Assembly (NCBI GenBank): GCA_963969365.1
Contig: OZ017756.1
Coordinates: forward strand, 806,001 to 870,000
Direction of reading: 5' to 3'
Source: Asterochloris sp. CNOR1
Lineage: Eukaryota > Chlorophyta > Trebouxiophyceae > Trebouxiales > Trebouxiaceae
DNA length: 64,000 bases
Positions within the stretch are counted from its first letter, which is position 1; every line of letters begins with the position of its first letter. A program made the translations under genes and the position numbers. Below the pieces are notes generated by a model. The model ran no database searches, was not told the DNA's origin, and saw nothing but the letters and a program-made list of their open reading frames with translations. Positions 7,004 to 64,000 of this stretch are shown in pieces.

Positions 7004-12704
<5,701 letters not shown>

Positions 12705-38337: not shown

Positions 38338-41300
38338 TCACTTGCAGCAGGCGCACCAGGCCACCACCCCCAACTGCCCCAACACACAAGCGTCCCCAGC
38401 CCCACCTCCCTTGTCGGGTGCTGTGGGCTGGCTGCCCGGCACGTTCCGTGGGTGTGTGACGGGCTGGTCGCACGACAGGCACATGGTGACCCCGTTGGAG
38501 CCCAGGGTCGTCCGCAGCCCCCGCGCGGCGCCGGGGGACCCGTCCCGCAGCCGCCTGTCCCAGTCTGCAAAGGCAGCCTTGATCGCCAGCCGCAGCTCCT
38601 GCAGGGCACCAAGTTGTTCATTCAGGCTTGGGGCTGGGGAGGGCAAGAGGTCAGAAAATATGGGGCACTGGGGCACCAGAAATGGCCATCCAGGCCTGCC
38701 AAGGCAGCCTGGAAGGCCAGCCGCAGCTTCTGCAGGGGTGCAGTAGCTTTTTGCTTCAAACGTAGGAAGTAGAGGCGCTTGTGAGATGGGGCAGTGATGC
38801 AAGGTGGAGCCTCCATCGCTGCACAGAGAGGCAACCAGTACAAGCGCCGGCGCAGCTCTGTCCAAACAGAATTGCTGGCCAGCTGTGGCCCCTGTGTCAA
38901 TGCAGTCATGTCTTGTCCACTCCGCAGGCAATCGCCAATGGTGGGGAGGGGTGTTGTCACGCAGCCATCGGCCTGCTGGGCTGTCACCTGCAACTGGGCG
39001 TCGTCCGCCTTGAGCGCCAGCGCAGCCCCCGCCCGGTCCGTCACCTGGGTCAGCCCCTGCAGCAGCGCGCTCTCCAGATGGCTGCTGCGCTGCTGCAAGC
39101 GAGCCTCCGCTGACTTCAGGGCGGGGATGTCTGCCTTGCCTGCAGGGCGACAGGGGCCAGGTGTGGCTGCATGCACATGAAGGGCAGGACAAGAGGGGGC
39201 TGCTGCAGGGCAAGCCTGCATGCGGCACGGTTGTGCGCCTTGCCTGCAGGTACAGAGGGGCCACATGCACATCAAGGCAAGGGAGCAGCAGCTGCTGCAT
39301 TGCTGCAGGTAGACAGCATTGTCTTCATGGCGGGAACACCTGCCCTGCCTGCAGGGGAACAGGGGCCAGGTCTGGGCATGTGATCACAAAGGCAAGACGA
39401 GAGTGCCTGCTGCGCACCTACAGACAGGCCTCTGATAACCTCGGTGATGGTGTGTCTGACATGCCTGCAGAAAGTGCCTGCCTTCTCAAGCGGCCAAGGG
39501 TGCACAGCAAATTTGGGGCCTGCTTCCGTGTAGGCAGTGCAGGCTGTTTCAGGCTTCAGGACACATGCACCTTGCCACCACGAGGACATGTTGTCAACTA
39601 CACATACTATCTGAGCATGCCCCACACAGCTGGAGCACAGAACCTCCCAGGAAATTTCTTCCAAACAGATGTGGGCAAGCAGAGATGCAGCGATCTGTCA
39701 CGAGGGTGGATCCGCAAGCTCCCGGTGGATCCCCTCACAGCCAGGGCCGACACTCACCTGACAGCTCCCTCTCCAACACATCCCGCGTCTGCAGCAGCGC
39801 CTGCGCTGCATCTGAGGCCACTTTCTCCAGGCTGGAGTCCAGCTGCAGACCAGCAGAGTGGCACCATCAATCAGGCGAAGCAGTTCCTCTATGGTGGGCC
39901 TCTTGCTGGCTGAACGCCAGGGCAGGTGTGGCACAGTCAGCTGCACAGAGGCGGAGGCCCAGCTCAAGCAGATCGAGTGCAACAGTCACAAGTGCAGGGT
40001 CAGCTGCACCAGGCTGCGGTCCAGCTGCAGCCCTCCAACATGGGCAGCCAGACCGGCAGACGCTTGGTGCAAGGCTTCTTGACAGGCTCAGGTGCGGCTC
40101 AACTTCAAGCCAGCTGAGCGTAGTAACCTCCCAGAGGGGAGGCAAGCTCTGACAGAAGGACACTGCCTGGAGCTGGCCGGCATGCAGGCTTTGTGTGACA
40201 GCATTGTGGGGCGTTCGCGCTGAGTAATGCGTGAGTCAATACAGCACACTCCTGCTGGAATGAGGAACGTTGGCACCAGGCTGGGTGGCAGCGGCAGCTA
40301 TGTGTTCAGCACTGCAAGCGGCTGTGCCGCGAGCACTGCAGCATAACTCTGCTACAGGCCTGCCTGCGGCTGCAGGGCCACATCGGTCATGCGCACTACC
40401 TGCTTTGCAGCATCAACAGCAACAGCTCACAGCGTGCCTGCATCCACATGCAGCAGCACACCACAGTATCTGTCCAACATTCACAGCCATCAAAAACAGC
40501 ACCACATGTACGTACAGAGGCACAGTCCTCTCTTGACCTTGACCTTGACTCAGCCTTGCCTCTTCAGGAAGCCCTGCACACGGACGGCTTGTATGCCTGC
40601 AGGCTTACCTCTGCCCGCAAGGGCACGACCGACCTGTCCGCCTTTGTGCTGATGCACTCCTCGATACGACCCTCCAGACCCCGCAGGTGTGCCTCCAGTA
40701 TGGCATGGTTGGCGCGGGGCTCCTGCATGGACCTGCAACCGGGAGTGCATAGCATGGCTTGTGAGCACAACACCAGGTGACTGCGACGATGGTGAAATCT
40801 GGTTGCGTTAGGCCTGTCAGACCCTTTGCCCAGCCAGCAGGCAGGTGAGCACATACAGGTCAGAACTTGCCCCATGTCAGGAAGCAGCACACATCAGCAG
40901 CCAGCAGGCAGGTGAGCACGTGACAAGCAGCGCTGCAGGGTGTGAGGGCAGGACACAGTCAGGTGTAGGCAGCAGGTGGTGCCTGCCTTGACTGCTAAGC
41001 ATGTGCAGGTGGCCGCTGTGCCTGTTTGGCCACGGCACCTGAAATCACTCAATGACTGCCCCCATGCTTCCAGCAACAGTTGTGCACCTGTCTTTGACCT
41101 GAGTGGGCCTTCCCAGCATCCCCTTACAGTCAGAAAGCTCCTTGGGACACAACTCCCCTGCCAGGGTGTTGACAAAAGCTACAGAAGGTTGGTGAGTGGG
41201 CGCCTTCACGCACCTCGCCAGCATCTTCTCCAGGTCTGAGGGCAGCACAGCGTCAGATGCTCGCAGCCGCGTGACTTCCAAGTCCTCAATCCGGCTCATT

Positions 41301-44300
41301 GCTGTTGCTAGCCCTTTGTTGAATGGCGCAATCATGCTGGGCAGGCTGGCCGTATTGTGCTCCACCTGCATGCCGTCAAAAACCACTGAGTGCAGCTTCG
41401 CATATTATCTCGGCTTTGCTGTCCTCTATTGAAGGCACAGCTCTGCTGGGTAGGGTGGCAGTGTGTGATAACAGGCAATGTCCTGCTTGGCAGCTTGGCA
41501 GTCCTGTGCTCAACATTTAGGCCATGAGGCACCAGATAAAGAGCGCGGAGCCTTGAAGGATGTTTGCACCCTGCTATGAAGCATGCTCTGCTGGGATGCA
41601 GAACCTTGCCAGACAGCCTGGCTGTCTTGTATCCGCCTGCACATATGATGCACAAGCCAGCTGTGCGAGCAGGCTGCCCACATCGAGATGCGATGCATTG
41701 CACTTTCCTGCAACTGCATGGTGCATTCTTGCTCATCTCTGTGCAGACAATGGACGCCTTCCAGGTCAGCAGGCCAGGTCAGGGTCCTGTCCTCAGGCCC
41801 AATGACAATGAAAGACCACGCACCTGCCATGCAGCTAGCACCTGTTTGGTCCCCAAATCCCTCCTCAGCACACCTGACTCCCCCCTTTCCCAACATCACC
41901 TGAACCTACCTGGGCAGTCAGCGCCTGCGCATGTCAGCACCCTTATACAGCTGTGCCAATGCATGCCCCTTCGACCACACAGCGCAAACAGGCAGCAAAG
42001 CTCACCTTGGCGGTCAGTGCCTGCGCAGATGTGCGCACCCCATCCAACTGCGCCCGCGTGTGTGCCTGCGCCTCGTCCAGCGCCTTGAGCAGCTGCTGAC
42101 GCAGCTCATTGGATTTGGAGTTTATCGCATACACATTGGTGTCTGTCTGGGCCTGGAAGCGCTGCTGGCGATCCTGCAGCCCATAACCACTGCACCAACT
42201 GTGTCCAGCGACTCATGGGCAGAGCAGGACGGCAAAATGTTTGGAGACACGGCATGGATCTGGGGCTGCAAGCGGTGCTGAAGTTCTGCAGCACCGTCAG
42301 GAAGAAGAATCTCTGTCTGGCAGCGCTGCTACGTGTTGTGTACAACACTGGAAGGAACAACATGCTGATGTTCATATGGGCCTGGCTGCTGGTAATCGCC
42401 CTGCAGCCAGTGGGCTTCAATAGAGTTTCCTGGTCATGTGCTGCCTGGGCTCAGTCAACATGTGCACTTAAGAACGGGGAGGGGTGCGGCCTAAGCAAAC
42501 TCTCAAAGGAGTTGCCAGGTGCACACACATGATGGACAAGGCTCAGCAGAGATGCTGTGTCTGCTGCATCAAGCTGTGTGTGCTTCAGCTCTGTCAAACA
42601 GTCTCCACTGAAGCTGTTCCCCTTCCAGGCAATTCGGTCAAGCAGAGCCCTCACCTGCAGCTTCCTGTCCTGTTGGCCCTGCTTTGGCATTGACAGAGCA
42701 GCACCAGAGTGCATCAGTTTGTTTGGTGGACAGCCCATCAGCCTCAACTAAGCTGCTCTTGAGAGGCCTCCCACCTCCTGCTCAGACAGTCTCTTCTGCA
42801 GCTCCCCGACCCTCTTGTCCTCAATGCGCTGCAGGCGCTGAGAGTTGGTCTCTGCGTCCCCGATGCGCGTCCGCAGCTCGTTCATCTCCTCAGCCGTGGC
42901 AGCCACTTGCTCCTGAACAGCACAGCACATCTGACAGGTCATATTTAGTTAAAGGTCTCAGGAGTGGCTGCTGCACGGCTCAAACCTGTGAGCATTGTCT
43001 CATTCCAAGCAGCAACCCCAGCTGCTCACGGGTGCCGAAATGCGCGCACAGCATCCTGGGGCAGAGGAGAGTGGCCACCGCTGATCAGCAGTGCCTGCCA
43101 GCTCCTACAAAATAGAATACACCACATTCGACCCCTCCATTATCTCTGCTCATGTAATTCTCAGCATTAGCTGCTCGCTCCTGAACAGCACAGCTTGCAG
43201 AGGTTAAAGGGGACATCAGTGCCATGCTCCGCAAGGCGGCGCCTTGCACCTATGTCAGCATGGTCCCCTGCACTCACAGGCTCCACTCCCTGGCCTGGTA
43301 GCACAAAGAACCCCAGCACCCCAACCTTGCTGCCTCCCCCTGAAATTGTGCAGCAGCCTCTGACATGACATGCCTATGCCAGACACTGAAGCAGGGTAAC
43401 GCTGCCGTGACACAAGCAGGGATTGTGCAAAGGGCCACATCCATGATTCCTTGTCCTGAGTCGGCAGCTGCTGCAGCACAAGCTGGACTTGCATGATGGA
43501 GGGCCAGCCCACCTTGAGGCGGGTCTGCAGCTTCTCCATTTGGGTCAACTTGGTTCCCACCGCCTGCCGGATTGCGCTGTCCGCCTCAGGGTTGCCTGCT
43601 GGCGCCGCTACTCCCTCTGCCCCAGCACCTGCAGGGCAGACATGACAGCAACATTGCAGCCAGAGCTCAGATGATTCTGCTGCATCTATGTAGCTTCGAA
43701 TGGCTTGTAGCGCTCCAGCCCAACATCACAAGGTTGCTCCAGGATCCAGCCCACATGATGGTGCCCCAGCTCTGTCCAGAGAAGGGTATAGCCTGCCTGC
43801 CCCGCAACAGCCAGCTCACCGCCAGCTGCTACAGCAGCCGCCGCCATGGACGCATCAGGCAAGGCAGCAAGGGCAGCCACTGGGGGCCCCTGCAGCTCTG
43901 GTGCCTCCCGCGGCTGCCCCACAGCGTTACACAGCTTGAACAACTGCCCAAAGTATTGCCCTTGCATGAGCCAGGTCTCTAGTTCACCTCCAGCGGCCGC
44001 AGCAGCTGCTGAGGAGGGCATGCTGGGCAGGGCAGCGGGGGCAGCCATGGGGGGCCCCTGCAGCTCCAGAGCTTCCAGGCGCTCCCCCATGTCAGCCAGG
44101 CGCTTCATGCACCGCTCAGCCGTGCTCTGTGCCTGGGTTGCAGTCGCCCGCAGCCCATCCACCTCCTCCTGCAGCCCTGAGACGTCCGCGCTAGGGGGGG
44201 CTGCCAGCATCTGCAGTAGCAGCAAGAAAAGGTCAGGACGGCATCAGAATGCTGTGGCTGCTTCGACATTACAGCGGCCTTGTTGGGCAATGCTGCCGGC

Positions 44301-46468
44301 ATCTCAAGTCTAGATGGAATGGTGCGGGCCAGGATGGCAGACCATTGTGGTCTGCGACTCTGAGTCGTCCACACTCAGGGCAGCTGCTGCTCTGTAGAGG
44401 CAGGGGGTAAAAAAGAACTACTGAGCTCAGCAGTTCATAGCAGGGAGTGGTACCATTGCAGCGAGGCAATCTGGCATGCCTGCAGCCCTGAGATGTGCAG
44501 ACCTAGACCAAGCTGCAGCAGTGCAGTCTACAGGGGCTTGTCCAAGCCGCTGGTGAAATTGAGGAGTGCTGAAATTGGGTGTAAGAGAGGGTGATGTACT
44601 TTGCTTTGGGCTTGTGCCTATCACTGACATCCACAGTGTCTGTAGTTCAAAAGAGCACATGCTGGGGGATGCTGGCGGGTGCAGCAGCAAGTGAGGCAGT
44701 CCTGGCAGTTGCAGGGCTATAAGGAGCACTGCTCCATGCCAGCAGAGCAACGCCTGACCACGAGGCACAGGCCGCCATGACCCGGCCGCACAACTGGGGC
44801 CTGTGTATGGTGCAGTGATGCACCCACGTGCATGTGTTCCAACGCAATTTGAGAAGCCAACCCCACCTGCACGGCAAGCAGCCTGCCAGGTGCAGAACTT
44901 TCAGGTGCTGCCAGCTGCTCCCCAGACCCCCGCAGCATCCCCGGAAATGCTGGCATCCCTGCTGCTGGCTGCTGTAATGCTGGCATCACTGCTGCTGGCT
45001 GCGCCGCAGGCAGCTGTGCAGGTGAAGGGCTACAAGGTTTGGCTATAGCGCCTGACATCTGCGGCAGCTGGGGCATCAGCGCCGCCCCTGGCTGCTGCGT
45101 GCCAGTTGCCACTGCCTGCTGTGGCGCTGCCGCCCCAGGCAGCTGCCCCTGAGCCTGTACAGCCTGCACCTGGGCTGCAAAGGCCTGCAGCTGCTGGGCA
45201 CTCATTGCCTGGGACTGCTGCATGAGGGTGTGCACCTGCAGCAACAGCATGCATGGGTTGGGATCTGGCTGCTGTGCAAAGCTTCGAGCATGTACTCTGA
45301 AATGCCGCACAGTTTGTGGAGCATCTCCTTTTAAGGCAGTAAGCGGGTAACCATGTCAGACACTCACCCAGGGATGCTGCAGCCTGCCAGGGTGAGCATG
45401 GAGCAGGGTGCAGGCATCCTGCTGCCTGCCCACAGTTGCTGTTTTCAGCAAGTGCTCCCACACATGGCAGCACATATGACATGCCGCTTACCTGAAGATT
45501 GGAGCTGGGCCTGAACATCCTGCTGACTCAGGCAGCGCCCAGCGGCTGCACCCTCTTGGTTGCCAGAGAGTCTGACCATTGTGTAGTCTGCTAGATGGCC
45601 CCATTGCAGCCCAGATGCTGCATGCCAGCCACATTGCGCAAAGCAAACAGAGACTGCCTGCCTGAGACTGGAGCTGGGTCTGGGCATCCCGCAGCTTCCG
45701 GTCAGCATTGGTGGTCTGCTGCTTGACCTCCAGCTGCAGCTGCTCCAGAACTTGCTCCTGCTCCTCTGAACGCTTCTCAGTAGCCAGCATCCTCTTCAAC
45801 ATGCCCTGCATGAAGGCATTTTTGGAGCATGATGGGGTCAGCTTGCACTAGGACACTGGGACTGGCCTTGCTCAGACTGCTGGTCAGGCACCAGCAGTTC
45901 TCTGAGCACGGTGTGCACAGGGAGAGTACCTTGGGCTGCATGTACAACATGGTCAGCAGGTGCAGATCCTCTGCTGTGGGTGGCTGCAGGTGCCAATTAT
46001 TGCTTTGCAAAAATTCTTCACCTGTCATAGTTTGCAACCTGGTGTTGGCAGGCTGGTGCGTAAACACACCAGAGTGTGACGGCACAGACGCCCTGCTGGC
46101 AGCTTCTAATGATGCAGGCCTTTGCACACCTTGACATCTCGGAGCTCTTCTTTGAGGAAGGCAATGGTCACGTTGTGATCTCTTATCAAGCCCTCTGTCT
46201 GGACCTGCAGGTGGGCAGCGGGATTCGCTCTATTGCACAGTTATCATGGCAACTATGGCTGACATGGTGCAATGGTCCCTCTTGGTTTGCTTGCCTGTGC
46301 ATTGACCTCCTTGGCGACCTGTCTCATCATCGACTCCAATGCGGAGGTATTCAGCTGAATGAGGTCCGTGACAGGCCCTGCAGGCTGTGCCACATTCTGG
46401 ACCGGCATGGCAGCCTTCATGCCTGCTACACACGCACTGGACTGGATAGCCAGGCCAGAATAGGTCAT
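38338..46468 (-). CDS. Coiled-coil protein with DUF4795 (QRICH2-like) C-terminus
   Basis: Long heptad-rich protein ending in the block GVTMCLSCDQPVTHPRNV, which resembles the CLSCDRP signature of DUF4795 found in QRICH2 (a sperm flagellum protein in animals). Sixteen minus exons keep phase for 778 residues: 46468-46295, 46204-46130, 45983-45930, 45805-45662, 45235-44867, 44210-43988, 43897-43820, 43628-43513, 42912-42775, 42678-42655, 42173-42006, 41365-41214, 40732-40609, 39842-39758, 39139-38988 and 38598-38338. Coiled-coil examples are VLEQLQLEVKQQTTNADRKL and RIEDKRVGELQKRLSEQE. A Gln/Ala/Pro-rich stretch (45235-44867) recalls the Gln-rich part of QRICH2. Introns after 46295 and 45662 start with GC. 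Neighbouring exons 44210-43988 and 43897-43820 share a duplicated peptide (ELQGPPMAAPAALP / ELQGPPVAALAALP). Several introns hold decayed exon copies. A ciliary role is inference. Confidence 0.65.
38680..38738 (-). repeat. Decayed copy of the last QRICH2-like exon start
   Basis: Minus reading TGCAG|AAGCTGCGGCTGGCC at 38729 mirrors the true exon start at 38598 (TGCAG|GAGCTGCGGCTGGCG). The copy would give KLRLAFQAALAGLD where the exon gives ELRLAIKAAFADWD. It sits about 130 bp upstream in the same orientation. Confidence 0.65.
39311..39356 (-). repeat. Decayed copy of QRICH2-like exon 39139-38988 start
   Basis: The reading GRAGVPAMKTM preceded by CCTGCAG parallels the true exon start GKADIPALKSA. 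The surrounding intron (39131-39420) shows two or three repeats of a CCTGCAGG...ACAGGGGCCAGGT block about 100-210 bp apart. Confidence 0.5.
40000..40030 (-). repeat. Decayed copy of QRICH2-like exon 39842-39758 start
   Basis: CTGCAG|CTGGACCGCAGCCTGG near 40024 parallels the true acceptor and exon start CTGCAG|CTGGACTCCAGCCTGG at 39842; the copy lies about 180 bp upstream in the intron. Confidence 0.5.
41484..41513 (-). repeat. Decayed copy of QRICH2-like exon 41365-41214 start
   Basis: Minus reading GTTGAGCACAGGACTGCCAA (VEHRTAKLPS) parallels the true exon start GTGGAGCACAATACGGCCAG (VEHNTASLPS). A run of CTGCT(T/G)GG...GGC(T/A)G blocks at about 41330-41620 suggests further, more decayed copies. 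Confidence 0.5.
45492..45519 (-). repeat. Out-of-phase copy of a QRICH2-like exon end
   Basis: GATGTTCAGGCCCAGCTCCA, flanked by AGCAG and GTAAGC, copies the end of exon 45805-45662 (GATGCCCAGACCCAGCTCCA). It has usable-looking splice sites but its 28-nt length would break the frame to the next exon, so it is probably not used. Confidence 0.5.
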
Positions 46469-46523
46469 GGAGTCTAAATTCGAACTGGAGTTGTTACACT
46501 TCACTGTCAGGCATGCTCTGCTG

Positions 46524-49500
46524 CTAGTCCATTTGCAACACTGGGTAGCTGGCTGGTGGTTCCTGCCCAAGTCCCAGGCTCTGCCGTTGCTGAGAGATGG
46601 TGTCCTGCACCCGGCGAATCTCGTTCTGCAGGCAGCAGCAAGTGGGCATCTCACCTGCATGCACTTTCAAAAGGCAGATATGTCCCCACATGGCACCAAT
46701 GCCTGAGACCAGAAAGCATCGGGAGCAAGCGTTGACTACGCTGAGTGCAGACAGGCAATTTTTGTTTGTCTGGCGGATGCAGCAGTGCTGAGAGATCTTT
46801 ATGACTCTGCACTCTGCCTGAGCTGCTGCTGGCACTGCCTGCATTTCTCGCCGCAGCAGTCCAAGTGAGTCTGCCCCTACCTTCCATGCGCCCAATTGCT
46901 CGCGCAACTGCTGCCAGCTGGCTGTCGTGAAGGTGCGATGCGAGCACTTAGACACGCTGAAGCTCCCACGCAGCTGGTCTATGCGCCCCTCCACAAGCCT
47001 CTGCAGGTGCATACAATGGGATGTACGGAGAATGTACTCGCTGTGAGTCACTCAGCTGCAGCCTCAATGCAGAGCCACAACAACTGGCAGGTGTCAGTGT
47101 AATACTTTGCAGGATGGCGCTCCAGCCAAGCCCTGCCAATCCTTGAACGATAAGTACGCTCTGGCTGGGCCCCCAGCAGACATCCCAGGCCTTGAGCAAA
47201 TCCACGATGCCACTGTGAAGTTTGATGACAGAGCCTGCAACCTGTGGTGACACCTCACTTTGCCGGGCGCTAACGTCCTTCTCCAGACCTACCTCGCCAA
47301 AGTCCTGCACAGTCCACTGCTGCAAACTTGCAGTGCTCCTCAGCATGAAGACCACGCACCTCCCTGCTGATACTCCAAGGCAAGCATTCCAGACTCACCT
47401 TGCCAATGGCCCGCACAATCCACTGCTCCACCTCCGCATTGTTCTGCAGGCCAAGGGCTTGCTGCACAGCCTGGAAGCTGACCACGTGGCTCTTGCTGCT
47501 GAGAGCCATCAGCGCTGTCAGCCTCAGCTTCAGCAAGAGCTCCTCCTGGGAGATCTCCAGAGCTGCCAGGCTGGATTTGTCAAAGCTCTCGAAGGCCTGC
47601 AGCAGCACAGCACCATGAGTCAGCTTCTGCCTGGTGACTCAGCAGCGCCTCCCCCTCGCCTGCCCAAGTGGTGCTGTAGGCAACCCCATATCGTGCACAG
47701 GCGCAACAGCCAGACCCTGGACAGCCGCAGCTTCAGTCGCACCTTCAGCAGCAGCACCTCCTGTCAGACCTTTGCAGCCGCTGCATTCAGCTAAGAGGCA
47801 CATCAACAGCATGCAGCAGACCTTCCCTGACCCAGCCTGTCAGCGAGGCATGTTGCAATTATTGTCAGAGAGGATGTTGCCAAGCATGTGGACACCAAGC
47901 AAGATGCCATGCAAGGGATGCACAAGGGGCGCCGGCCAGGGTATGCCTGCAGCCAGCTTGCAGCTGGTCACCCTGTTCAGCGCATGCACACTAGGGGACA
48001 CCTTACAGGCATGCCTCTCTCTGCAGCTGAGTCACCGGCTTGCTGCAATGAATGCATGAATCACTAAGGACTGGACCCCAGAGTGCTGCCTGCTAGCAAC
48101 ATGTTGCTGCCGAAGTACTAGCTGCCAAATGCCCCACAGAAATGATCGTATCCTGCCCCACGCAGGGTCCTGGTTTCAGCTGCCCAATTGTACATGCTGC
48201 CTGATCCAAAGCCCAAGGATTGGCAGCTGCGATCCAGTCACCTTGAGGTCCCCATCCAGCACAATTTGCAGCAGCTGCCACAGCTTCCCATACTGGGCAT
48301 CCCCCTTCAGCTGCGCCACTGCAGGGCTCTCCAGCAGATCAAACTGGAAGACGTCTGGGCTGCGTATGAACTCTGTGACAGCTGCAGCTGACACGCCCTT
48401 CACGCTGGCCAAGTCCTGGGTACTGGCGTCCTCAAAAGAGGCCAGGCACCTCAGGGTGAGCCGGTAGGCATCCCTTGCAGCACTTTTCCGTTTCTGCAAA
48501 AGCGTGCAGTGGGTCAGCTGGCAGATCAAGAACAGGCAGGCATTTTGGTGCGTGACCTCAGGCAGAAGTCTGCGGGCCTGCACAGGGAAGCCGCAGGAGG
48601 GCACTAACAGCCTGAATTTAGCAGAGCAGGATGCATGGGGGTGGCATGGCTGCTGCATGCTAGGGTGGATGCCTGCAGTGGAGCACATGGGAGGCAGGCT
48701 GACACATTGGAGGCCCTCAGGAGGCCTTGACAGCATCCTGGGCAGAGACTGCACCTTGGAAACTGTGCGTAGCAGGTCTGCACATGCCAGGTACAGGTCG
48801 CGGCTCTGGCTGGGGCTCAGGTGCCACTCTTTTATCCACAGTTCTGCCCGTGCCTGCACACCAAGCAAAGGCCTGTCAGCGCTGAGACAGAAAGGGCCTG
48901 CTTGCAGCTGCTGTGGCTGCCTGTGGCGAGTTGGCTGCACTGAGGCTTGCTATGGATCGCGCCGGTCAGGCTGCCAGCGCTGGGACCGCGAGTGGCTATT
49001 GGGTCCAAGTTAGGTTCTGGCTTGAAGTCAAGGCCAGCCATCAAGTGTTACACAGCAGCACTTGTGTGTTAGCCTGCCAATCCAGGCCAACCAGCTGCAC
49101 TGAACCACCCTGGTGCAGCACCTCAGGCGCACAGGACTCCACCAGGTAAGCACACCCTGCCTCACTTTGCAGCTCAGCTGGCAGCTCACCCTGATCACAG
49201 GCGCCAGCAGGTTTGCGAGGTCTGCCTTTTTAGCATAGGAAATGCTCTGCAGCAGCATGGCATGCTGCGTGGCAGCATCCTCTGCCACATTGTGCAGCTC
49301 AGCAAGTCCCTGCAGCCTCAGGTCGGGCTTGTCATTTGCCTCCACCTGCAGCAAGGGTGTGCAGAGGGTCAGTCCAGCCAGCTGGTGGCCTGGACTGCAC
49401 TCTTGCATGACTGCTCACAGCCCAGCAAAATCCTGTGCAGGTGAGTGCGCGAGCTTTGTGACTTGCAGCATGCCCCGTGTGTGTGTTTGTGAGGGCATGC

Positions 49501-50757: not shown

Positions 50758-53700
50758 ATGGTGGACATGGCCAACCACGAGCAGGCTGTCAAGTGCACTG
50801 AGATCGCACGGGCAGCCATGCAGGCCAACAACCTGGAGAAGGCCAGGCGCTTTGCAGACAAGGCCATGAAGCTGCATGCTTCTGATGAGGTCAGTGGCAG
50901 TGCCCCATGGCGGCACATGTCCTCATCTGAAGCTTTGCATGGTGCTACAGAGGAAGCTTGCATGGTCTCTGCATGCTGGCAGGCACAGGGGCCTCGTGCC
51001 CCTTTCAGGGATAGCTGCAGACGCTGGCACAGCGAGCTGCGTTGCTGCAAAGCACGGGCTTGAGTGTGTGCTTAGCTGTATGGCCTGCATCAGCATCACT
51101 TGAGCAGAAGAAATGCAGGCAATGGGTCCTACTTCTGCCCCACCAGGCAGGCTGTTCACATTCACAATGTTGCTGAATGATGCAGAACAGGTCAGGGCTC
51201 TGCACTTGATCAGGGCGTCGTACAGCTTCACCAATGCCCATGCATTGGTTTGAGGCAAAGCTTTTGGCCCTCATCACAATGCAGGTGCGCCTGTTGATCA
51301 TTCAGATCAATGCAAGGACCTCCAGCCGCAGCGCTACCCCCAAGCCGACAGCCAATGGCCATGCGTCGGCAGCAGACGTGCGCCAGAGGCCTGCAGCAGC
51401 GCAGGGTGCGGGCCGCCCCATCCTGCCGGAGAGGGAGATAGATGTCTCCACGCCAGAGCAGCGGGAGCTGGTCAGTATAGTATCTGAATCTGCCAAAGCA
51501 GGCAGGGGATGTCTTCAAGCCTAAGCAGCTGCTGGTATATGCGCTACCCGGGCCACCTGTTGGTCATCTTCTGCTGAAGCTGTCTATGCCACAGCCTGCT
51601 GCGGGGCCTGCTCTGCTTCAGATCATGTACAACATGGGCTTGCCGTTGCCATCGCTGGATGCCGCAAACTCAAGCAGGGGCTTGCAGGCTGCCTACTACT
51701 GTTGGCATAAAGCATGCTGTCGTGCAAGCAAGCATTGTTGCATCTAATGAAAGCCACCAATCTCTGCTGCAGGTGCGCAGCATCAGGAGGACCAAGGATT
51801 TCTATGAGATCCTGTCTGTCAGCAAGGACACCAGCGATGAGGACATCAAGCGGGCCTACAAAAAGCTGGCGCTGAAGCTGCACCCAGACAAGAACAAGGC
51901 CACCGGGGCGGACGAAGCGTTCAAAAGTGAGTCTGGTCTCGCTTTTGTCCCGAGGCTGTGGCTGTATCGCTGATTTGATTTCGATGGCTATCAAGCCGCA
52001 CTTGAGGAGACATCAGACCTCTGGGGCAGGCACCGTGTCCAGGTTGTCATATGGGCGTGTGTCACGAGCTCCTGGTGTCCTGCCAATGCAAGGCAGCAGC
52101 TTTTGCTTTGGACGTAGGCATGGCAGCAGACAGCACTATGACACTGTCTTCAGTGCTTGGCTGCCCTGACCTGACCCCCGGTTGCTGCTGCAGAGGTGTC
52201 CAAGGCATTCAGCTGCTTGGCAGACCCCCAGAAGCGAGCGGCCTATGATCGCTACGGCGAGGATGATGGGATGCAGCGGCGGGGTTCGGGCATGCCCCAC
52301 GGCTTTGCCACGCCGGACGATTTTGACCCCAACGAGATTTTCAACATGTTCTTTGGGGGGGGCGGCTTTGGTGGGGGCTTTGGGAGGTGGGTCTGGGGGA
52401 GCCTGTGGCGCTTTTGAGGTGCTGTTGTGCTGAGCTGCTTTGTCCTTGAACTCAGGAAGGGTCGTCATGCTTTGCTCCAATGTGGGGGAGGGCTGTCAGC
52501 CTGTGTGTCAGCCTGTGTCTGGGACATGCAGCCAGTGCGATGTGTAGAGGACCCTGCATATCCTCACTTTGCGCTGAGGTGCCAGGTAATTGGCGAGTTT
52601 TGGCACGTCCTTGCTTTCAATTGTGGAGATTCAGGTTGCTGGGGGATGTGGCTCACACAGGGAGCTCTGGTGATGTGCTGCGTGGCCAAGAGTAGGCATG
52701 AGACTGGGTGTCGAGGGCACCACAAGCTGCGGCAGTCATTGCTGACCCTCGCCAAGAATGTGCTGCCTGCCAAAAGCCATGTTGCGCTCCCGTCTTGCTG
52801 CAGATTGCCTGAGGTGTCAGGACTGCCCCGTTGATTGTGTGCAGAACATGCAGTCCCTGCTGCCCCTTGTGCAAATCTGTAGAGGTGGGACCCTGCAGTG
52901 ATCATTTGCCCCAGCCTCTGCTGGTCCTTTGATGTATGCAGCTGAGATATGTGCATGCCACCTGCAGGAGTCATGTGTTCCAGACAGGGTTTGGGGGGCC
53001 GCCCAGGAGACCGCGGCCCCAGGGGCAGCAGCAAGGGCCGACAGGCAGCTTTGCGGGCATACTGCACCTGCTGCCCATCCTGCTGCTGCTGTTCTTCACC
53101 TTCATGATGCAGCCCAGCGAGCCGGTGAGCAGCACCTTCCACCATGCCTGGATGGCCACATGGCCTGAGCACTGGCATTGCTTGGGGCCAAGACTGAAAG
53201 TGTGCATGCTCAGGGTGATCAGCTATCTCCCTCTGCGTCACACTGCCTTGTGTCTGACCTAGCAAGCTGGTGTGCATCCTGTGCCCTGCATGGCCAGTCC
53301 TGAACTGTGCCTAGTTGATGTGTTCCACTTCAGTCAGCGTGGTCGCATGGCACAGCCTGTGCGCATGCGCAAATGTGTGCACTGTTGGCCAATGCACAGC
53401 AGTGGTGCCCTGCACAGAGTAGCAGGCCTACCCCGGTGCATGCTAGGCTCCTGTGCTTGCCATGCATGTTTGCTGAATGCTGCTGCATGCGGTCTGCTGC
53501 AGAGAGGCTGGTGTGCTCCTGCGCATCGCCTGGCAACAGCTGCCATCCAGGGCGTGTGGGCAAGCCCGCAGGGTCTGCTGACAGCTGGCATCACTGTGGC
53601 TCTGAGACAGCAAACGTGTCCAGCCTGTGGGTTGAAGCTTCTGCCTGTGCAGGTGTTGAGCGTGGGAAAGGTCCCAATTCGTACAGGTCTGCGGTCAGCT

Positions 53701-54507
53701 GGGCGCCGTGATGTTGCCTGATGCCTGCATGCTGGTGCCTGTGCAGGTTTTCAGCTTGGAGAGGTCCAACGTGTACCTTGAGGAGATGGTCACCCGCAAG
53801 TTCAACGTGCCGTTCTTTGTCAAGAGCGAACACCAGTTTGAGCAGTCCTATCCGTCTACCAGCAGGGAACGGTGAGCCCGGGGGTGTCTACCTGTTACAG
53901 CTGCCAGGAGCAGTGGGACGCATGAGATGTGCTGTGGCAGGGACTGCATGTGTTGCTCTTCCAGCGGCAGTAAACGTTGACTGGCCTTGGGACCTGGTAA
54001 AGCATACCGCTGGGCGGCGCAGCAAACTAGCTGCACTTTAAGGCAGCCGTGCTGGCTACTGATCAGCACCTCGTGGCCTTGCCTATATTGAGACGTGTGC
54101 AGCGGTGCTTGTCCGCCTTCCACCTGCTGCTTCAGGCACAGGACTTTCTTGCATGCCCCACTTTCTGGCCGCTTGCAACAATAGGCTGCCTGCCCAGTCC
54201 CATGATGTGCAGGGCTCGAGTCGAAAGCGAGGTGGAAACCGCTTTTAGGGAGTCCCTCGAACAAAATTGTTATCACGAGAGGGCACGGCGTGACAACCTG
54301 CTACGCTGGGGGCGCAAGGAGCAGGCCAAGAATCTGCCCACTCCCAGGCAAGTTCTATTCCACTGTGGTATCGTGTATGCTCCCTGTCAACCGTTCTGTC
54401 TGCTTATTCACACCTGCTGGCCATTAACATGTCCTTCATGCTGGCGCAGTTGTCAGATGCTGTCAGACACCTTTGGCGTGATGCCCAGACATATTTTTGC
54501 CTATTGA
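50758..54507 (+). CDS. DNAJB12/DNAJB14-type ER-membrane J-domain co-chaperone
   Basis: Type II J protein with DUF1977, anchored in the ER membrane, which stimulates Hsp70 in quality control and ERAD. Eight exons keep phase for 379 residues: 50758-50889, 51285-51470, 51773-51926, 52194-52386, 52968-53124, 53747-53871, 54213-54347 and 54450-54507. An N-terminal helical segment ([20 protein letters not shown]) precedes a polar linker and the J domain ([20 protein letters not shown], with the HPD motif in KLHPDKNK). A Gly/Phe stretch with [13 protein letters not shown] follows, then one membrane segment ([17 protein letters not shown]) and the C-terminal DUF1977 region ([20 protein letters not shown], then NNLL-like [20 protein letters not shown]). 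Intron 7 (from 54348) starts GCAAGT. The size and order match DNAJB12/14 and plant homologues. Confidence 0.93.
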
Positions 54508-56741: not shown

Positions 56742-57598
56742 CTGCAAGACACAGCGTGCCAGGTCCCTCAAGTATGGGTGAGTGACGTTTTCTATGGATT
56801 GTGCATGCTGATGGGCCTCTGGGACAGGCAGTGCCCATCCCAGATGTGGCCTGTGAATGCTCAACACTTGGTTGCTGCCACAGTGACAGAGTGCTGTGTA
56901 CAAGTCAGGGCATGCTGGGGTGGAGGATGTCGTCAGGTGAGCCATCAGCCATAGTGATATTTCTTAGATGCCAGGTTGAGGTGTGCTGCAATGTCAAGCT
57001 TGTGCACATTGCATTGCATGCTGTGTGCTGTGACAAGTGAAGCAGAATGAGGTCAGGCGGGCAATGTGGAAGATGGTGCTCAATGGGGCAGGCAGCAGGT
57101 GTTCTCCACTGCATCAGTGCAGAGCCTGCCATTGCTGAGTCCTTGGCTGTGTGGGGCAACAGCAGCCTTCACCAGAGTCAGCATAAACTCTGAGATGTTA
57201 AAACGCATTTGTGGGAGACACAACTGCTCATGAGTAGCGAACATGTGAATTCCTCTGAAGACCACTGACTAGAACAGCACCTTACATCATTTTGCCCAGC
57301 AGTACAGCTGCCTGAGCAGCGACCCCCTGCAAGCTTGCGATATGACGGGGCCAAGGCCATCTCTGGCGCTGTAGCCGTTGTTCCTCTCTCATTGTTCCTC
57401 TCTCTTTTTCTTGCAGTGCTAATCTTCACTGTGCAATACTCCATTCATCCAAGGACTTCAGAGGGCAGAGGACTGCCAAGATCATATGCAGACGTAAGTG
57501 TTGCGTGATTGTCAGCTGCATGAAGCCCACTCCACGGGAGAAAAGGCTGACGACCAAACAGGAGTGGTGTCTGCCACCGGTTGACCAGCGGCGGCACC
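56742..57598. other. Spacer, no gene seen
   Basis: About 0.85 kb before the TPR gene. Frames are short and unconvincing. A pyrimidine-rich run with TCTCTCATTGTTCCTCTCTC at about 57386-57405 lies about 200 bp upstream of the TPR start and may belong to its promoter or 5' leader. Confidence 0.4.
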
Positions 57599-59778
57599 AT
57601 GGTCAAATCAGAAATGCTTGCTGGCCACTCACCCCAAGGTTGCACAGTGACTCATCCATCACTACTCAGGCCTGCCAGATGCAGAGCAGCAAGGACATGT
57701 CACTGTCAAGCAAAGCCAATGCTTTGCAAAGGCCATTGTCGCAGACAACTTCTTCTGTCTGGAGCAGCAATGCTGGCAATGTGGCACCCGTCACTTGCCC
57801 TTGCGCTGTCATCAGATGTTCAGCCCACCAAGCTGAGGCCAGACTTGGCACCAAACCAGTCAGACTACAACCCCACGGACCCAGACCTGCGTGAGGCAGC
57901 AGGCCTGGTGCAGAGAGCATTGAATGCAGAAAACGTCAAGGTGATGGCTGCCATCATGCCACTGCTGCAGCTCATGATGCCCCAAAGCTTCCTGCAGCAG
58001 GCAGCCCCATGCAGTATTGGCAGCACACAACACCCCTCATGGCTGCCGCAGGAGGAGGAGCGTCTCTGGACACTGATCATTGACAAGTACGGGAAGTTCG
58101 AAGCGAATTGGGTGCCTGATGTTGTGGGGCGAGCCTGGGGAAACAGAGGCAACGCGCGGTCGAGGCAGGGCAAGCTGCAGGAGGCCCTCGCTGACTACAA
58201 TGAGGCAATCCGCATCTGCCCCTGGTCGGGTGACCCTGTGCTGAACAGGTACGCACACAGCAAGCCTCTCTGAGGTCTGCTGGCCTGTACCTCATAGCGC
58301 CATGCAGGCCGCAGTACAGAGCGCTTGGCAGGCTGGCTCACCTTGATGAAGAAGTGTGGCACTCCACTCGTCCAGAATGCAGGCGCTGAGCTCTAGCAGC
58401 TGTGCTGCCCTGCAGTGAGAGTGCATTCACCTAACCCTCAGGGCTGCTGGATGCACCAGAGGAACCCACATTGCCGCCTGCCTGTGCACACCAGACGCAA
58501 GCCTGCAGCTGAGTCCACTGAGCACCTACAGGGGAGTGGTGCTGGAGGCTCTTGGCCGCTTCCCTGAAGCAATCACAGATTACCAAGCGGTGAGTGCAGC
58601 AAACAGTGGGCCCTGCTGCGTCCAGCCCCTGCAGCTCTACAAAGCTAGAGATGCAGCTGCATGGTTGCTGAAGTACAAAGGGATTGCAGCCATGCCTTTA
58701 GCGAATTAAAGGGGTGGCAGCAGCTCCAATCACTGCAGAGGGCACTGTGTTGCACTGTGCAGCAGCATCACCTGCTCAGCGGCCCGAAGTCAGCCCATCC
58801 TGGCCGCACTCAGTCCCCGTGCATCTCACCTCCTCTCTGGCTATTCAGGTGCTGGAGAAGCAGCCGCAGGATCCAGCAGCCTGGAACAATCTGGGGAACG
58901 CCACAGCAGGTGGGGCCAGCAGAGCTGTCCTCTCCGCTTGGGGCACTTCCTGAACGCCCAGCTGTGTATGATACTGCTCTGCGGCGTCCCCTCGACACTT
59001 TCGATCTGACAAGCTGTGGCTGCAGGGCTGGGAAATTGGAAGGAGGCAGTGGAATACTATGGCAAAGCCGCCTCACTAGCGCCAGAGTTTGCATTTGCAG
59101 GTGGAGTGCCAAAACAAACATGCTGGACATCCCTTGCTGATGTGGGCATGTGCTCAGGCAAGGCTTGCTCTCTGCATTGACATCTAAATCTGTGGACTCC
59201 TGTTGTGTCTACAGGTGCAAACAAGGCAGTGGCGCTGTATCAGCTGGGTCAGGTCAACGAGAGCATGAGGGAGATGCGGTGCGTGCAGAGTGATGGCTCA
59301 CTTCCCTGAAAAGCAGGCTATCACTAAGCGCTGCCGCCCATTCCTTGCCGCTTTGTCTGAATGCATGCCTAATACACTGCGCAGCTGCTGCTGATGGGAC
59401 TCGTGCGCTGGGTGCAGCAGTGTTCTTAGTCTTCTATGCAGGGCTCTGCTGCGGCGATATCCTGAGTTTGCTGATGTCAGGGCAGCTCTCACTGCTGCGC
59501 TGTGGGGCCTGGACAAGGTTGGAGATGCAGAGACCAACTGGCAGCGCATCAGCGATCCCAGGTACGCACCTTCTGCGAGCAGTCAAGGCAGGTCATGGCT
59601 GTGCATCACCAGGCAAACATGCTGGCAGATCGTGCCTGTCACCTGCCTCAGGTGCTGACAGGCTGCTTGGCATGCCTGCAGGTACAGGGACCTGGACTGG
59701 CTGAGAAAGAGGAGGCGCTGGCCTCCCCGCCTCATGCAGAATTGGCAAGCATTTCTAGAGATCAAAGCTGGCAGCTGA
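57599..59778 (+). CDS. Chloroplast (thylakoid-lumen-type) TPR protein
   Basis: Conserved plant/algal tetratricopeptide-repeat protein. Eight exons keep phase for 337 residues: 57599-57940, 58052-58248, 58532-58589, 58849-58909, 59026-59100, 59215-59278, 59442-59561 and 59682-59778. The N-terminus is a Cys/Arg/Ala-rich transit stretch followed by a twin-Arg, hydrophobic, AxA-like signal (RRQLLLSGAAMLAMWHPSLA then LAL), suggesting Tat import into the lumen. The mature part starts DYNPTDPDLREAAGLVQRAL. TPRs follow: WGNRGNARSRQGKLQEALAD, GVVLEALGRFPEAITDYQA, WNNLGNATAGLGNWKEAVEY and NKAVALYQLGQVNESMREMR. The tail has LLRRYPEFADVRAALTAALW and RRRWPPRLMQNWQAFLEI. I recall close plant homologues of unassigned biochemical role. 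The lumen location is an inference from the RR signal. Confidence 0.88.
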
Positions 59779-59893
59779 AGGAAAGGCTCCGTGTGAAAGC
59801 AGGGACAGACCGCACAGTTTGTTGCTTACTGAGTACCCGTGGACCACAGCTGCCGGAGATTTGAACACTTTTGACGGCATCAACGCGTACTCA

Positions 59894-61805
59894 ATGTCGA
59901 GCGAGGCTGAGGCCAGTAAGGCTGAAGCCGTTGCATGGCAGTCCCTGGCAGATGCCGTGTTGCTGGACCGCGAAGGGGGCCCTGTCAAAGCCGTATCACT
60001 TTGGCAGAAGCAGCCCTGCCTCATCCTCTGCATGCGCCGGCCTGGCTGCAGTGAGTTTGAGCCCCATGAGGCATTTGTGACTCTGCCATTTGTCAAGAGC
60101 AAATCCCCGCACATGGCTTGGAAACAGCTAGGCCCCGAAGTGGTGCTTCACCATTGGATTGAGCATTGCGCTGCAGCCTCCTCCGCAGCACATTATTGCG
60201 TATTGCCCGCCCTAGCAAGCTTTAAAAGCCCTGCATCCTCCTGCAGTCCTGTGTCGTGCTGAGGCTAAGCGACTTTGGGGACTTCACAAAGTGATACGGG
60301 ACGAGCTTGGCATCAGGATGGTGGTCGTGGTTCATGAGTTCCTGCAGACTGAGATCCAGGTGGGTGCAGGTGCACAACAGTGCAGCAACACGCCGCATCT
60401 TGCATGCATAGTGGGTCCAACTCAGCAGGTGGGGCACAGCTGGCATGGGGGCCCTGACTCAGCCTGGCTGCTTGCCTGGAGCTTGTATGCTGCAGGGAGA
60501 GGCAGCGCCTGGAAGGGGCCTGAGCAGCATTCAGCTGCTTGCATCCTAGAACCTGCGCCAGTGCCGTCTGTTGCTGGCATAGCAGCACCTTTCCTTGGGC
60601 AGGACGTTATTCAATTGGCTGCCCACAAGATTTGACTGCCCTCTGCCCTAACTTCTGATTTGCACCCAAGGCTGGGCCTGCCAGCCCCGATCAACAATTG
60701 CATCTGTGGTGTGCCTTCTCACACCAGTACTCTGTTGCCTGCAGGCATTTGCACCGGCGTTCTGGGCTGGAGAGGTCCTGTATGATAAAGACAAGGCCGT
60801 CTTTCAGGCACTGGGGAATGGGAAGATCAGGTGCTCCACCAGCGGGCGCCAGCAGACCTCTGAAAGCACTGCCCCATCACATTGGATCTGCTGACACAGT
60901 TTTGGGAAGCTGCGGGCTGCTCCAGCGGCAAGGAAGAGCTGCCAGAGTCCTGTGAAGCTGAATGCTCGCACCAAAGCAGCATGCCCGCCTCACTCAGCAT
61001 TGCCCGCAAGCGAAGCGTGCTGACTGGGGCCTGCACCAGCTTGCGCCCTGCTGTGAGCTGTTACCAGCCCCGCTGGATACAGCCTGACTTGCCTGACTGG
61101 GGTGCTCATGCGCTGCAGGAAGGGGTCAATGCTGACCTTCCTGAATCCCTGGAACCGTGTGTACAAGAACACGTCAGAGGCGCGGCAGGAAGTGACAGGC
61201 AAGCAGGGATTGCCGCAGGGGGTGTCCCACCTCCTCTAGCATCTGGCCCACCTTGGACACGGCTGCTTCCTCGCAATGCCTGACCTAAAACAAACATGCA
61301 TGGCATCCTGCCCGGAGATTAAGTTGCCATGCGTGCGCTGAGCCTGGCCCTGCTGCTTGTTGCAGACTTCAACTTTAAGGGAGACGCCTCAGTACTCGGA
61401 GGCATGATGGTCATCAGGCCCGCCTCTGGGAAGATGGGCGCACAGCTGGAGTACATCTTCCTGGAGAAGGTGACGTCCTGCTTACGCCCCGTGCCCAGAA
61501 GTCTGCTGTAGCTTGAGCGCGCACGAACAGCCTGGCTGCGCTTTGCCTTGCACAGCCCCGTCTGGCACAGGCTTCAGCCAGGGCCAGTGCCACTTCTCAT
61601 CAGGTCGCTCACTCCTTTTCCTGACATATTCCTGTGCAGGCCTTTGGGGACCATGCACAGCACGATGAGGTGAGAGCTGTGCCTTTAAGACGGCTGCATA
61701 TCGAAGTTAGGCTGAAGGCCAGTCCTGTATGGCCAGGTCCTGAAGGTTCTGACTGCCCTGCTGCAGGTGCTTGCAGCCTGCCGCCGCGCTGCAGGACGGG
61801 AATAG
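59894..61805 (+). CDS. PRXL2/AhpC-TSA-2 (SelU-family) peroxiredoxin-like protein
   Basis: Thioredoxin-fold redox protein related to animal PRXL2A/FAM213 and to algal/fish selenoprotein U. Seven exons keep phase for 202 residues: 59894-60050, 60247-60359, 60745-60830, 61119-61198, 61366-61469, 61640-61669 and 61767-61805. The redox motif spans intron 1: CLILCMRRPGC then ILCRAEAKRLW, giving CxxC (C-I-L-C). In SelU proteins the first position is selenocysteine; here it is TGC, Cys. Further blocks are MVVVVHEFLQTEIQ, WAGEVLYDKDKAVFQALGNG, RKGSMLTFLNPWNRVYK, DFNFKGDASVLGGMMVIRP and YIFLEKAFGDHAQHDEVL. Intron 4 (from 61199) starts GCAAGC. The start is the ATG at 59894; an upstream in-frame stretch to about 59819 could add a leader. 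It follows the TPR gene by 115 bp and converges on the PDIA6-like gene. Confidence 0.88.
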
Positions 61806-62017
61806 TGATCAGGTTGTCGAACTGTTTGATGGCGCACACACTGAGATTCCATTTTGCGATGCCTCTGGCTGGCGACTCATGTACAGGACAGTGCAGATTG
61901 TTCCCCTGGACAGTGAAGTCACCGCACACTGCAATTGCTTGAGGGCATCCTGTTCTGCACAGTGGGCATGACCCCTTCAGAGCGCCAAATTGAATGATAA
62001 CCTGTGCAAAAAGCTGA

Positions 62018-64000
62018 TCAGAGTTCATTGTCCTTGTGTTTCTTGGGCCTGTCTCTTTTCTTTTTCTTGCTGCGGGGCTTAGCCGTGTGTTGCGGTTGTG
62101 CCTGCTGCTCCTGCAAGGTGTAACAGGCTGTGTTTCAGTCTCAGAAGATGCCTGCTGAGGGGTGCACGACAGTTCCTCTACAGCTTGCCTACGGTAGACA
62201 AGGCAGTCTGCTAGCTCCAGCTGGCAGTCCTTCAGCCTGGGAGAGCCCAGCGGTACCTGCTCTTCCTGCTCTATCTGTTTCAAGCGCTCCTCTGTGCTCA
62301 GACTGCTGCCCACTTGCTCCCCCATGATGTCACTCAAGTCAAACTCCTCCTCGATCTCCTGCTGCTCAGGCTGCATCACTGCCTCCCCACCGTCCACCAA
62401 CTGGGGCAGCTCCTGCAGGCACACAGGCATCCTGGGCTTTGGCACAACATTTGCCTGCTGGGGCCGGGTTGCTGTGGCAACATACAGGCCACTGAGAGAC
62501 AGCAGGCCCCCATATGTGGGCAGACAGGCTGCACCATTGCAAGAAGGCAAAAGCAGACACCAAGAGCAGTGTTCAGAGCCTGTGACACTGTGAACCCTTC
62601 AACGTGCTGTCTGGCAGACATGCGCAGGCAGACAGGCCTGCCCACCTCCAGAGCCCTGGGCACAAGAGCATTGCCAAGCAGGCCCTTAAGGAAGTCCTGG
62701 AGGTTGGCAAGTGAGTACTCTCGCTGCAGCTGGAGGATGCTCCTCTTCTTGGGGCTGAGCGCGACAGCTGTGGGCAGCTGGCTACCTTCAGCTTGCACCC
62801 CTAGCTGGGCGGCAAAGCTGTGCTGGCGCAGGGCATCCACCCACCTGCAGGGTGTGACTAGCACGTCAGCGCGCGCCGACAGCACCAGGCTAGTTCCTGA
62901 GGGGTACCAGGATCATATGCTGTTTTGCACTGCCAACACACAGTGCAGTCCAGGGCTATGCTTCAGCTTGGGAGGCACAGCATCCACCAGTGCACCACAA
63001 GCACTTGTCATGGAAGGAAGGCCTCCGTGATTGTAGGCCGCCTGTGTGGCAGATGACCTGGTCACACAGCAATGCAAGCCAAGCGCAGTAGCACCACCAG
63101 CAGATGCCTCACATGAAATGGATGGGGGCAGCTGTCATGTGCTCTGCTGCAGCCTTCAGGTCCTGCAGCTGGTCGGCAAAGCTGTCTGCTTGTACGTCCA
63201 GCAGGGCAATGAGGCACAGCCCTGCACTTGCAGTACACTGCTGCTCCATCTCAGCGTTGCTGGTGAGCTCCACCACTTCCTTACGAGTCTTCTCAGGAGC
63301 TGCAGCTGCCTCCTGTGCCTTAGGCCCCAGCCTGCAGGCGGCATAGTCACTCTCAACAAGGCCTGCTGCTATACAAGGAGCTTCTCTGTGCATCAGCGTC
63401 AGCTCTTGTGAGGGACCAGCAGCCACATGTGGACCATTTTGTGCAGCTCCACCCCTCAGGAGTGACAGCCAAACTACCTGGCAGGGGCAGCGGCAGCAAC
63501 AGCTCTCACACTTCAGCATAGCTCTCCAAGCAATTTCTTTGTCATCTCTGCAGAAGCAAGCCAGTGCAGGCCCTTCTTCACTGCTCAAGACGTGTGAAAG
63601 TGAGAAATTTGCACATGAGCTCACCACATGTTAGGCCCAGCCTGGCAGCTGAGCAGCACACGGAGGGCAGGCCCCTGCTTGCTGAAGGTGAGTTGTACTC
63701 ACTTGAGCCTGGTGGACGCCATGTCCAGCTGATGAGCCATGCATTTGTGATTTGCCATCACCCCTTTGCAGATTGCAGTGTATGCTGCTTGACTGCATGC
63801 AAGCTGTAGCTCAAATGAGCTTGTTGGGAGCCACATCCAGTCAGGCTGCTCAGGATTGCATAGAGATGGTGCCTAAAGTTCTGTGCTGCTCATTGTCACT
63901 GCTCCCGTCACTACTGCATGCATGCTGCAGCTTACTTGAGCTCATTGGAGGCCATGTCCAGCCAGGCCGCCAGGTAGGGATACTTGAGGGGGCCTCGGAA
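62018..64000 (-). CDS. Protein disulfide isomerase A6 (P5)-like, 5' part outside window
   Basis: C-terminal portion of an ER disulfide isomerase. Minus exons in phase: 64000-63936 (partial, GPLKYPYLAAWLDMASNEL), 63331-63113, 62844-62646, 62412-62257 and 62110-62018. The non-catalytic thioredoxin-like domain matches PDIA6: EVVELTSNAEMEQQC, IHFMWVDALRQHSF, PTAVALSPKKRSILQLQREY, SLANLQDFLKGLLGN, ELPQLVDGG, then the acidic EIEEEFDLSDIMGE. Unusually, the acidic tail is followed by a charged spacer (STEERLKQIEQEEQ) and a Lys/Arg-rich exon (KPRSKKKKRDRPKKHK) ending DNEL, a KDEL-like tetrapeptide. The CxxC thioredoxin domains lie upstream of the window. The last exon was chosen because it has a TGCAG acceptor and ends in an ER-retention-like signal. 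Reading straight through 62257 gives a less sensible tail. Confidence 0.75.
63681..63975 (-). repeat. Tandem copies of a PDIA6-like exon end and donor
   Basis: Three same-orientation copies of a roughly 48-bp block, spaced about 112-121 bp, end in GCC(A/)CATGTCCAG-like sequence at about 63681-63728, 63793-63840 and 63916-63961. The last is the true exon end (LDMASNEL plus donor). The others read LDMASTRL (with an intact-looking GTGAGT donor at 63700) and LDVAPNKL. Confidence 0.65.

Follow-up and report, generated by a model that had tools for sequence, protein, structure and literature searches.

Diverged copies of exon edges in the introns of the green alga Asterochloris sp. CNOR1 and the local direct repeats to which they belong

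In a 64,000-nucleotide stretch of contig OZ017756.1 from the green alga Asterochloris sp. CNOR1 (positions 806,001 to 870,000; hereafter the window), the introns of several genes hold diverged, same-strand copies of the exon edges beside them, often with the splice site included. The question raised by this locus is whether such copies are chance similarities, the product of a process directed at splice junctions, or the residue of duplication acting on neighbouring DNA in general. We find that local direct duplication is real, and that the exon-edge copies are probably best explained as ordinary short local duplications that are concealed by splicing at exon edges and then decay.

The main sample comprised 314 kb, made up of the 64-kb window, the adjoining 200 kb of its contig (C11) and 50 kb of C1. 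Additional stretches of C6 and C3, which lay outside the training of the gene finder, brought all sequence examined to 354 kb plus 2 kb of the 56-Mb genome. Local repeat pairs were collected by ungapped self-comparison at a score of at least 14, after masking of a run of 200 N at window positions 28272-28471, either an assembly gap or a withheld stretch, that was a source of false short-period matches. Within the window, 35 such pairs lie on the 140 diagonals 60-199, as compared to 13 on 3000 diagonals at 2-20 kb. Across the main sample, direct pairs at distances of 15-499 bp number 250 and inverted pairs, tallied in 10-kb blocks, number 24, while 30 local dinucleotide-preserving shuffles gave means of 10-12 pairs (maximum 19) and distant diagonals predict 15.8. 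Direct local repeats are thus about 10-fold over inverted ones and >20-fold over local shuffles, an excess that vanishes by about 500 bp. The duplicated units were probably longer than the detected cores, as the flanks show excess similarity: among pairs at least 90 bp apart, similarity extends beyond the cores in 25.9% of 270 flanks versus 6.3% of 804 controls. In a comparison of unit length with period the median gapped similarity amounts to 0.44 of the period, and either strict tandem duplication or short templated copying may have produced the units. Since direct pairs exceed the inverted, shuffled and distant-diagonal controls alike, word bias does not account for them and direct duplication over short distances is real, in agreement with the local duplication that a first-pass annotation of the window had proposed as the source of such copies.

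Exon-edge copies occur in adjoining introns of six named genes (RUVBL1, SCLY-like, DLH, eIF3m-like, DnaJ, and PDIA6-like) and of one coiled-coil gene (Table 1), and gapped alignments lengthen several of them to about 55-85 columns, most of which cross the junction. The real junction is backed by protein alignment in RUVBL1, SCLY, DLH, and eIF3m; in PDIA6-like, DnaJ, and the coiled-coil gene, the junction taken as the used one is derived from open frames and gene prediction. All five genes for which the first-pass annotation had reported same-strand copies do carry them, within or beside the splice site. The interval that it assigned to the phenomenon, 38680-63961, takes in part of the examples but misses RUVBL1, SCLY, and DLH, which lie at about 9.5-36.5 kb, and its name QRICH2-like found no backing, as the part of that gene submitted to Pfam gave only a sub-threshold match to Med11.

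The ungapped match in the SCLY-like gene covers the exon end (31045) and just one intron base. Introners or transposon-derived introns would be recognised by related copies dispersed over many introns; the repeats classified here are local ones, and across the whole genome a 221-bp query taken from DnaJ gave one match. The RUVBL1 copy at 10883..10904 is an exon according to the gene finder, yet it is skipped by the alignment to RuvB-like 1. In both RUVBL1 and eIF3m it is the exon-side copy that encodes the conserved protein. Separately, in an intron of the RUVBL1 region (window 9990-10412) a ~30-bp unit (GCCCAGCTCAGGCCTGCAGGCATTCATGAC-like) recurs in four related copies, some of them spaced about 74-76 bp apart.

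Table 1. Exon-edge copies, their counterparts and other local duplications in the window (window coordinates).
Gene	Feature	Position	Strand	Basis
RUVBL1	Acceptor junction 11559|11560, used copy	11546..11579	+	Self-comparison; exon VVNRYIDQG aligns to RuvB-like 1 directly after EINK
RUVBL1	Intronic decoy of acceptor and exon start, 363 bp upstream, CTGCAG|G kept	11183..11216	+	Ungapped and gapped alignment
RUVBL1	Exon end before donor 10738|10739, source of copy	10697..10718	+	Self-comparison; EINK end backed by RuvB-like 1 alignment
RUVBL1	Intronic copy of exon end, 186 bp downstream	10883..10904	+	Gapped alignment continues across donor
SCLY-like	Exon end (VLEAMQ) at donor	31044..31062	-	Self-comparison; protein alignment spans the joint
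SCLY-like	Copy of exon end, 139 bp into intron	30905..30923	-	66-column gapped alignment
DLH	Donor junction 35009|35010, used copy	34992..35014	+	Self-comparison; protein alignments span the joint
DLH	Decoy of donor, 99 bp downstream, GTGAG kept	35091..35113	+	Ungapped and gapped alignment
Coiled-coil gene	Donor 42005|42006	42004..42027	-	Predicted junction, without homology support
Coiled-coil gene	Intronic decoy of donor 42005, 96 bp away	41908..41931	-	58-column gapped alignment across junction
Coiled-coil gene	Exon end near predicted donor 45657	45665..45692	-	Predicted junction, without homology support
Coiled-coil gene	Copy of exon end 45665-45692, 169 bp away	45496..45523	-	Self-comparison and gapped alignment; copy region predicted as exon too
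Coiled-coil gene	168-bp-period duplication, 43813-43921 and 43981-44089	43813..44089	-	Both copies mostly in one predicted exon, beside predicted boundary 43819
	131-bp-period duplication, 38565-38606 and 38696-38737	38565..38737	-	Both copies within a predicted exon, at the start of the interval given by the first-pass annotation
eIF3m-like	Donor junction 47398|47399, used copy	47388..47430	-	Hand-joined VRAIGK-RLVEGRIDQ aligns gaplessly to eIF3m
eIF3m-like	Decoy of donor, 106 bp into intron, GTAGGT kept	47282..47324	-	Gapped alignment; predicted as exon by gene finder
DnaJ	Acceptor 53746|53747, used copy	53736..53759	+	Predicted junction; homology only to DnaJ domain upstream
DnaJ	Decoy of acceptor, 94 bp upstream, TGTGCAG|G kept	53642..53665	+	Ungapped self-comparison
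PDIA6-like	Donor 63935|63936, used copy	63913..63970	-	Open frame running on into L027; homology only to exons after junction
PDIA6-like	First copy of donor, 121 bp into intron, GT lost	63792..63849	-	Ungapped and gapped alignment
PDIA6-like	Second copy of donor, 233 bp into intron, GTGAG kept	63698..63729	-	Ungapped and gapped alignment

Junctions were compared to intron interiors on gene models from a simple home-made finder, trained on the 314-kb sample, which yielded 72 genes, 488 introns, and 976 junctions. The splice consensus of these models is CAG|GTGAGC at donors and an extremely strong CTGCAG|G at acceptors; about 10% of predicted donors have GC instead of GT, for part of which prediction error may account. 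Counting a junction as spanned when a repeat (score of at least 14) covers at least 8 bp on each side, we found 50 of the 976 predicted junctions to be spanned (donors 19/488, acceptors 31/488), and random points, 20,000 in each class, to be spanned in 2.3% of cases in introns, 2.9% in exons, and 0.7% in intergenic DNA. In a further test, a 50-base query at each junction was scored against its own intron and against the introns of other genes, which share the CTGCAG/CAGG bias, with introns <160 bp and exons <25 bp excluded. Here the top 1% was reached by 25/283 donors, 25/291 acceptors, and 18/587 intron-interior queries, and, with the splice consensus masked, by 14/283, 14/291, and 16/587, respectively. 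Masked junctions remain above the 1% expectation (p 1.4e-6 and 2e-6); an excess over the CTGCAG/CAGG background, on which the first-pass annotation had let its proposal depend, is therefore found even with the consensus masked.

With masking, the difference between junctions and interiors reaches significance at the 5% tail (p 0.010 for donors, 0.005 for acceptors) and falls short of it at the 1% tail (odds 1.8-1.9, p 0.11-0.12). The junction-to-interior ratio is 1.9 overall (gene bootstrap, 95% 1.3-2.7), and 40-base queries at the 0.5% tail give a smaller difference (donors 4.1% of 317, acceptors 5.3% of 318, intron segments 1.9-3.8%). An excess of about two-fold is roughly what selection that preserves the exon-side copy might produce: a pair within introns would decay on both sides, whereas an exon-intron pair would decay mainly on its intron side and would stay recognisable up to twice as long.

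The distribution of repeats over exons, introns, and intergenic DNA bears on the same point. At distances of 60-120 bp, pairs per opportunity amount to 106 parts per million (ppm) for intron-intron, 180 for an exon and its downstream intron, 212 for an intron and its downstream exon, and 66 in intergenic DNA, with a far background of 2.3 ppm. Introns hold local copies both with and without junction contact. Copies in the own intron reach the top 0.5% for 7.2% of 319 upstream exon ends and 4.0% of 327 downstream exon starts, while exon pieces 80-120 bp from the edge are rarely copied there (1.4% of 215 and 0.4% of 233), and coverage by intronic partners peaks at exon edges, at about 5-7% versus 2.9% across all intron bases. 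Periods that are multiples of three are favoured among same-exon repeats (12/21), with no such lean among exon-intron repeats (24/90). Copying that is largely limited to edges, together with the lean toward the reading frame, is what one would expect to see if selection on the mRNA acted as a filter on local duplications.

The repeat excess and the locations of the copies are observed; how such copies originate, disappear from exons, leave splicing to the exon-side site, and decay is inferred as follows. Short direct duplications (period roughly 15-400 bp) would arise along the genome, probably by slippage or by copying of neighbouring DNA in break repair. A duplication inside an exon would usually damage the protein and be lost unless the frame were kept, and one inside an intron would be harmless. 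A duplication crossing an exon edge would give the gene two splice sites; with the exon-side site used, the mRNA would be unchanged and the extra copy turned into intron sequence, where decay would leave the intron longer by a diverged exon edge with its decoy splice site. The present state of the putative decoys shows no clear sign of selective purging of their sites in these small numbers: GT is kept in 6/11 decoy donors (7.4 expected from overall identity) and AG in 14/18 decoy acceptors (12.8 expected). Among decoys in the same intron as their junction, GT is kept in 4/9 and AG in 10/14, and 6/14 acceptors and 3/9 donors fall no more than 2 bits short of the real site in score, or surpass it.

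Several observations weigh against this explanation. Because exon interiors are no poorer in repeats than intron interiors (2.9% versus 2.3% of points), loss from exons is not directly demonstrated, and same-exon pairs, at 86 ppm, are likewise as frequent as intron-intron pairs at 79 ppm; such a loss may be masked by protein repeats that keep the frame and by decoys that were taken for exons. Local direct repeats per opportunity are fewer in intergenic DNA (34 ppm) than in exons (86 ppm) or introns (79 ppm), and the shortfall relative to introns is unexpected under a purely random process. Spanned junctions are unevenly distributed, with 49/808 on C11 versus 1/168 on C1 (p = 0.0015), and decoy acceptors often persist although harmful sites might be the first to go. 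Moreover, the gene models are wrong near some copies, the RUVBL1 and eIF3m decoys being called exons and eIF3m being fused with its neighbour, and which copy is the derived one is judged within a single genome.

Some of these same observations could be accommodated by a reading that we consider unlikely, in which duplication is directed at exon edges or splice junctions, for instance through breaks linked to transcription or splicing. The roughly doubled rate at junctions relative to intron interiors, the peak of intronic partners at exon edges, and the abundance of local repeats in genic over intergenic DNA would all fit it, but the two-fold excess is expected anyway when selection keeps one copy recognisable for longer, and the masked comparison carries little weight at the 1% tail. 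Regionally, the C3 stretch shows a clear excess, with 9/84 junctions spanned (10.7%) as against 2.1% of its intron interior, whereas none is seen on C6 (4/92, or 4.3%, against 4.1%) or C1 (1/168, or 0.6%, against 1.2%); the excess in the three pooled (14/344, or 4.1%, against 2.2%) is due to C3. Repeat density itself also varies, C6:1000001-1020000 (L028-L029) containing 270 local direct pairs per 100 kb versus 48 on C1. Of the proposal that local duplication repeatedly copies exon-intron boundaries, local duplication and intronic copies that leave decoy splice sites are supported. A special copying of junctions is not supported: interiors are self-copied at about half the rate, and C3 is the only one of the three stretches off the window's contig with an excess over interior. 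We think it improbable, in a more limited form of the same idea, that junctions are preferred duplication sites in parts of the genome, for example through breakage on exposure to transcription or splicing, and that introns grow stepwise by copying their own edges, as the two successive copies in PDIA6-like might illustrate. If that were true, the strong decoy acceptors that have been retained would amount to a lasting stock of alternative 3' splice sites.

It is similarly doubtful that some of the copies are real duplicated or alternative exons rather than decayed decoys. In some pairs both copies are predicted exons (for example those beginning at -181960 in window coordinates, on C11, and at position 14997 in the C1 stretch), and the preference of same-exon repeats for multiples of three points in the same direction. 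Conversely, the homologues of RUVBL1 and eIF3m align straight past the predicted extra exon.

A less probable account still is that the introns themselves originated when an AGGT-bearing piece of exon was duplicated in tandem (the Rogers model), in which case the surroundings of donor and acceptor would be mutual copies with a period equal to the intron length. This whole-intron signature is present in 3/488 introns, more than the 0.3 expected at a score of at least 12 or the 0.1 expected at a score of at least 14, but all other introns are at background (7 versus 6.9 expected at a score of at least 9), and where a copy shares the intron of its junction, that intron is longer (median 412 bp, n=23). 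The strongest case, C11:617727-617773, is a 47-bp duplication that is 98% identical. It belongs to a near-perfect tandem duplication that takes in CTCTGCAG|GTGCGCAG and the exon start behind it (C11:617715-617804; L003:1715-1804) and that places two near-identical acceptors side by side (C11:617726|617727 and 617773|617774) at a period that is not a multiple of three. To judge from its sequence, this case looks more like an acceptor and exon start copied once, and may thus be a fresh instance of junction copying. Intron birth by tandem duplication is rejected as the main cause, since at most 3/488 introns fit, and a part in intron-making is accordingly rare here.

Least probable of all is that the matches are chance similarities arising from CTGCAG and CAGG words and the splice consensus: the acceptor consensus is very strong and masking nearly halves the junctions in the top 1% (25 to 14 for both donors and acceptors), but word bias and splice consensus are ruled out as the cause by the inverted, shuffled, far-distance, and other-intron controls, the first two of which fall far below the direct count.

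Ordinary local duplication at exon edges, if it is the source of these copies, would provide a quiet route to intron lengthening, for which the 50 spanned among 976 predicted junctions represent a measured rate in the 314-kb sample. Intronic copies of exon edges can also mislead gene finders, as they did in RUVBL1 and eIF3m, and decoys with intact sites open the choice between similar neighbouring splice sites to direct test.

Among the literature matches listed, as judged by titles and the starts of abstracts, none describes green algal introns as recurrently holding copies of exon edges, which is not proof of absence. Gao and Lynch, in a 2009 study cited in PMC4974935 and PMC3443670, are said to have described internal gene duplication with intron creation, reporting duplicated gene pieces in several eukaryotes with introns that were sometimes changed. 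As compared to that type, the copies found here are mostly short, diverged, and located inside existing introns, the signature of intron creation being limited to the 3 introns noted above. Thomas et al., in a 2004 study cited in PMC2671141, reportedly described "doublets", short paired duplications that lie close together in eukaryotic genomes and are identical or nearly so; the copies examined here differ in being diverged and in having been tested against splice junctions.

Internal gene duplication with effects on introns has been published, as have the duplication of intron-exon boundaries and the copying of splice sites to nearby positions by repair (PMC4974935, PMC2671141, PMC2891723, PMC3443670). 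In the potato gene RdRp, a tandem-duplicated intron-exon boundary includes the 3' splice site and exon start (PMC4974935). The boundary copies described here similarly bring along the splice site and exon start, but whereas the potato copy gave rise to a new functional intron and exon, the present ones are mostly diverged putative decoys. Repair-mediated local duplications in vertebrates are short nearby copies that include exons and intron splice sites and for which copying in break repair was proposed (PMC2671141); that set was recognised from insertions that interrupt transposons, leaves out cases within 50 bp, and has an average spacing of 1.2 kb, versus about 100 bp here. In Drosophila, introns were gained by tandem duplication of proto-splice sites, that is, AG/GY-bearing exon sequence (PMC2891723), and these cases concern the origin of whole introns, at most a minor part of what is seen in this alga. 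Rather than a new mechanism, the present case looks like a quantified instance of the internal gene duplication known from animals and plants.

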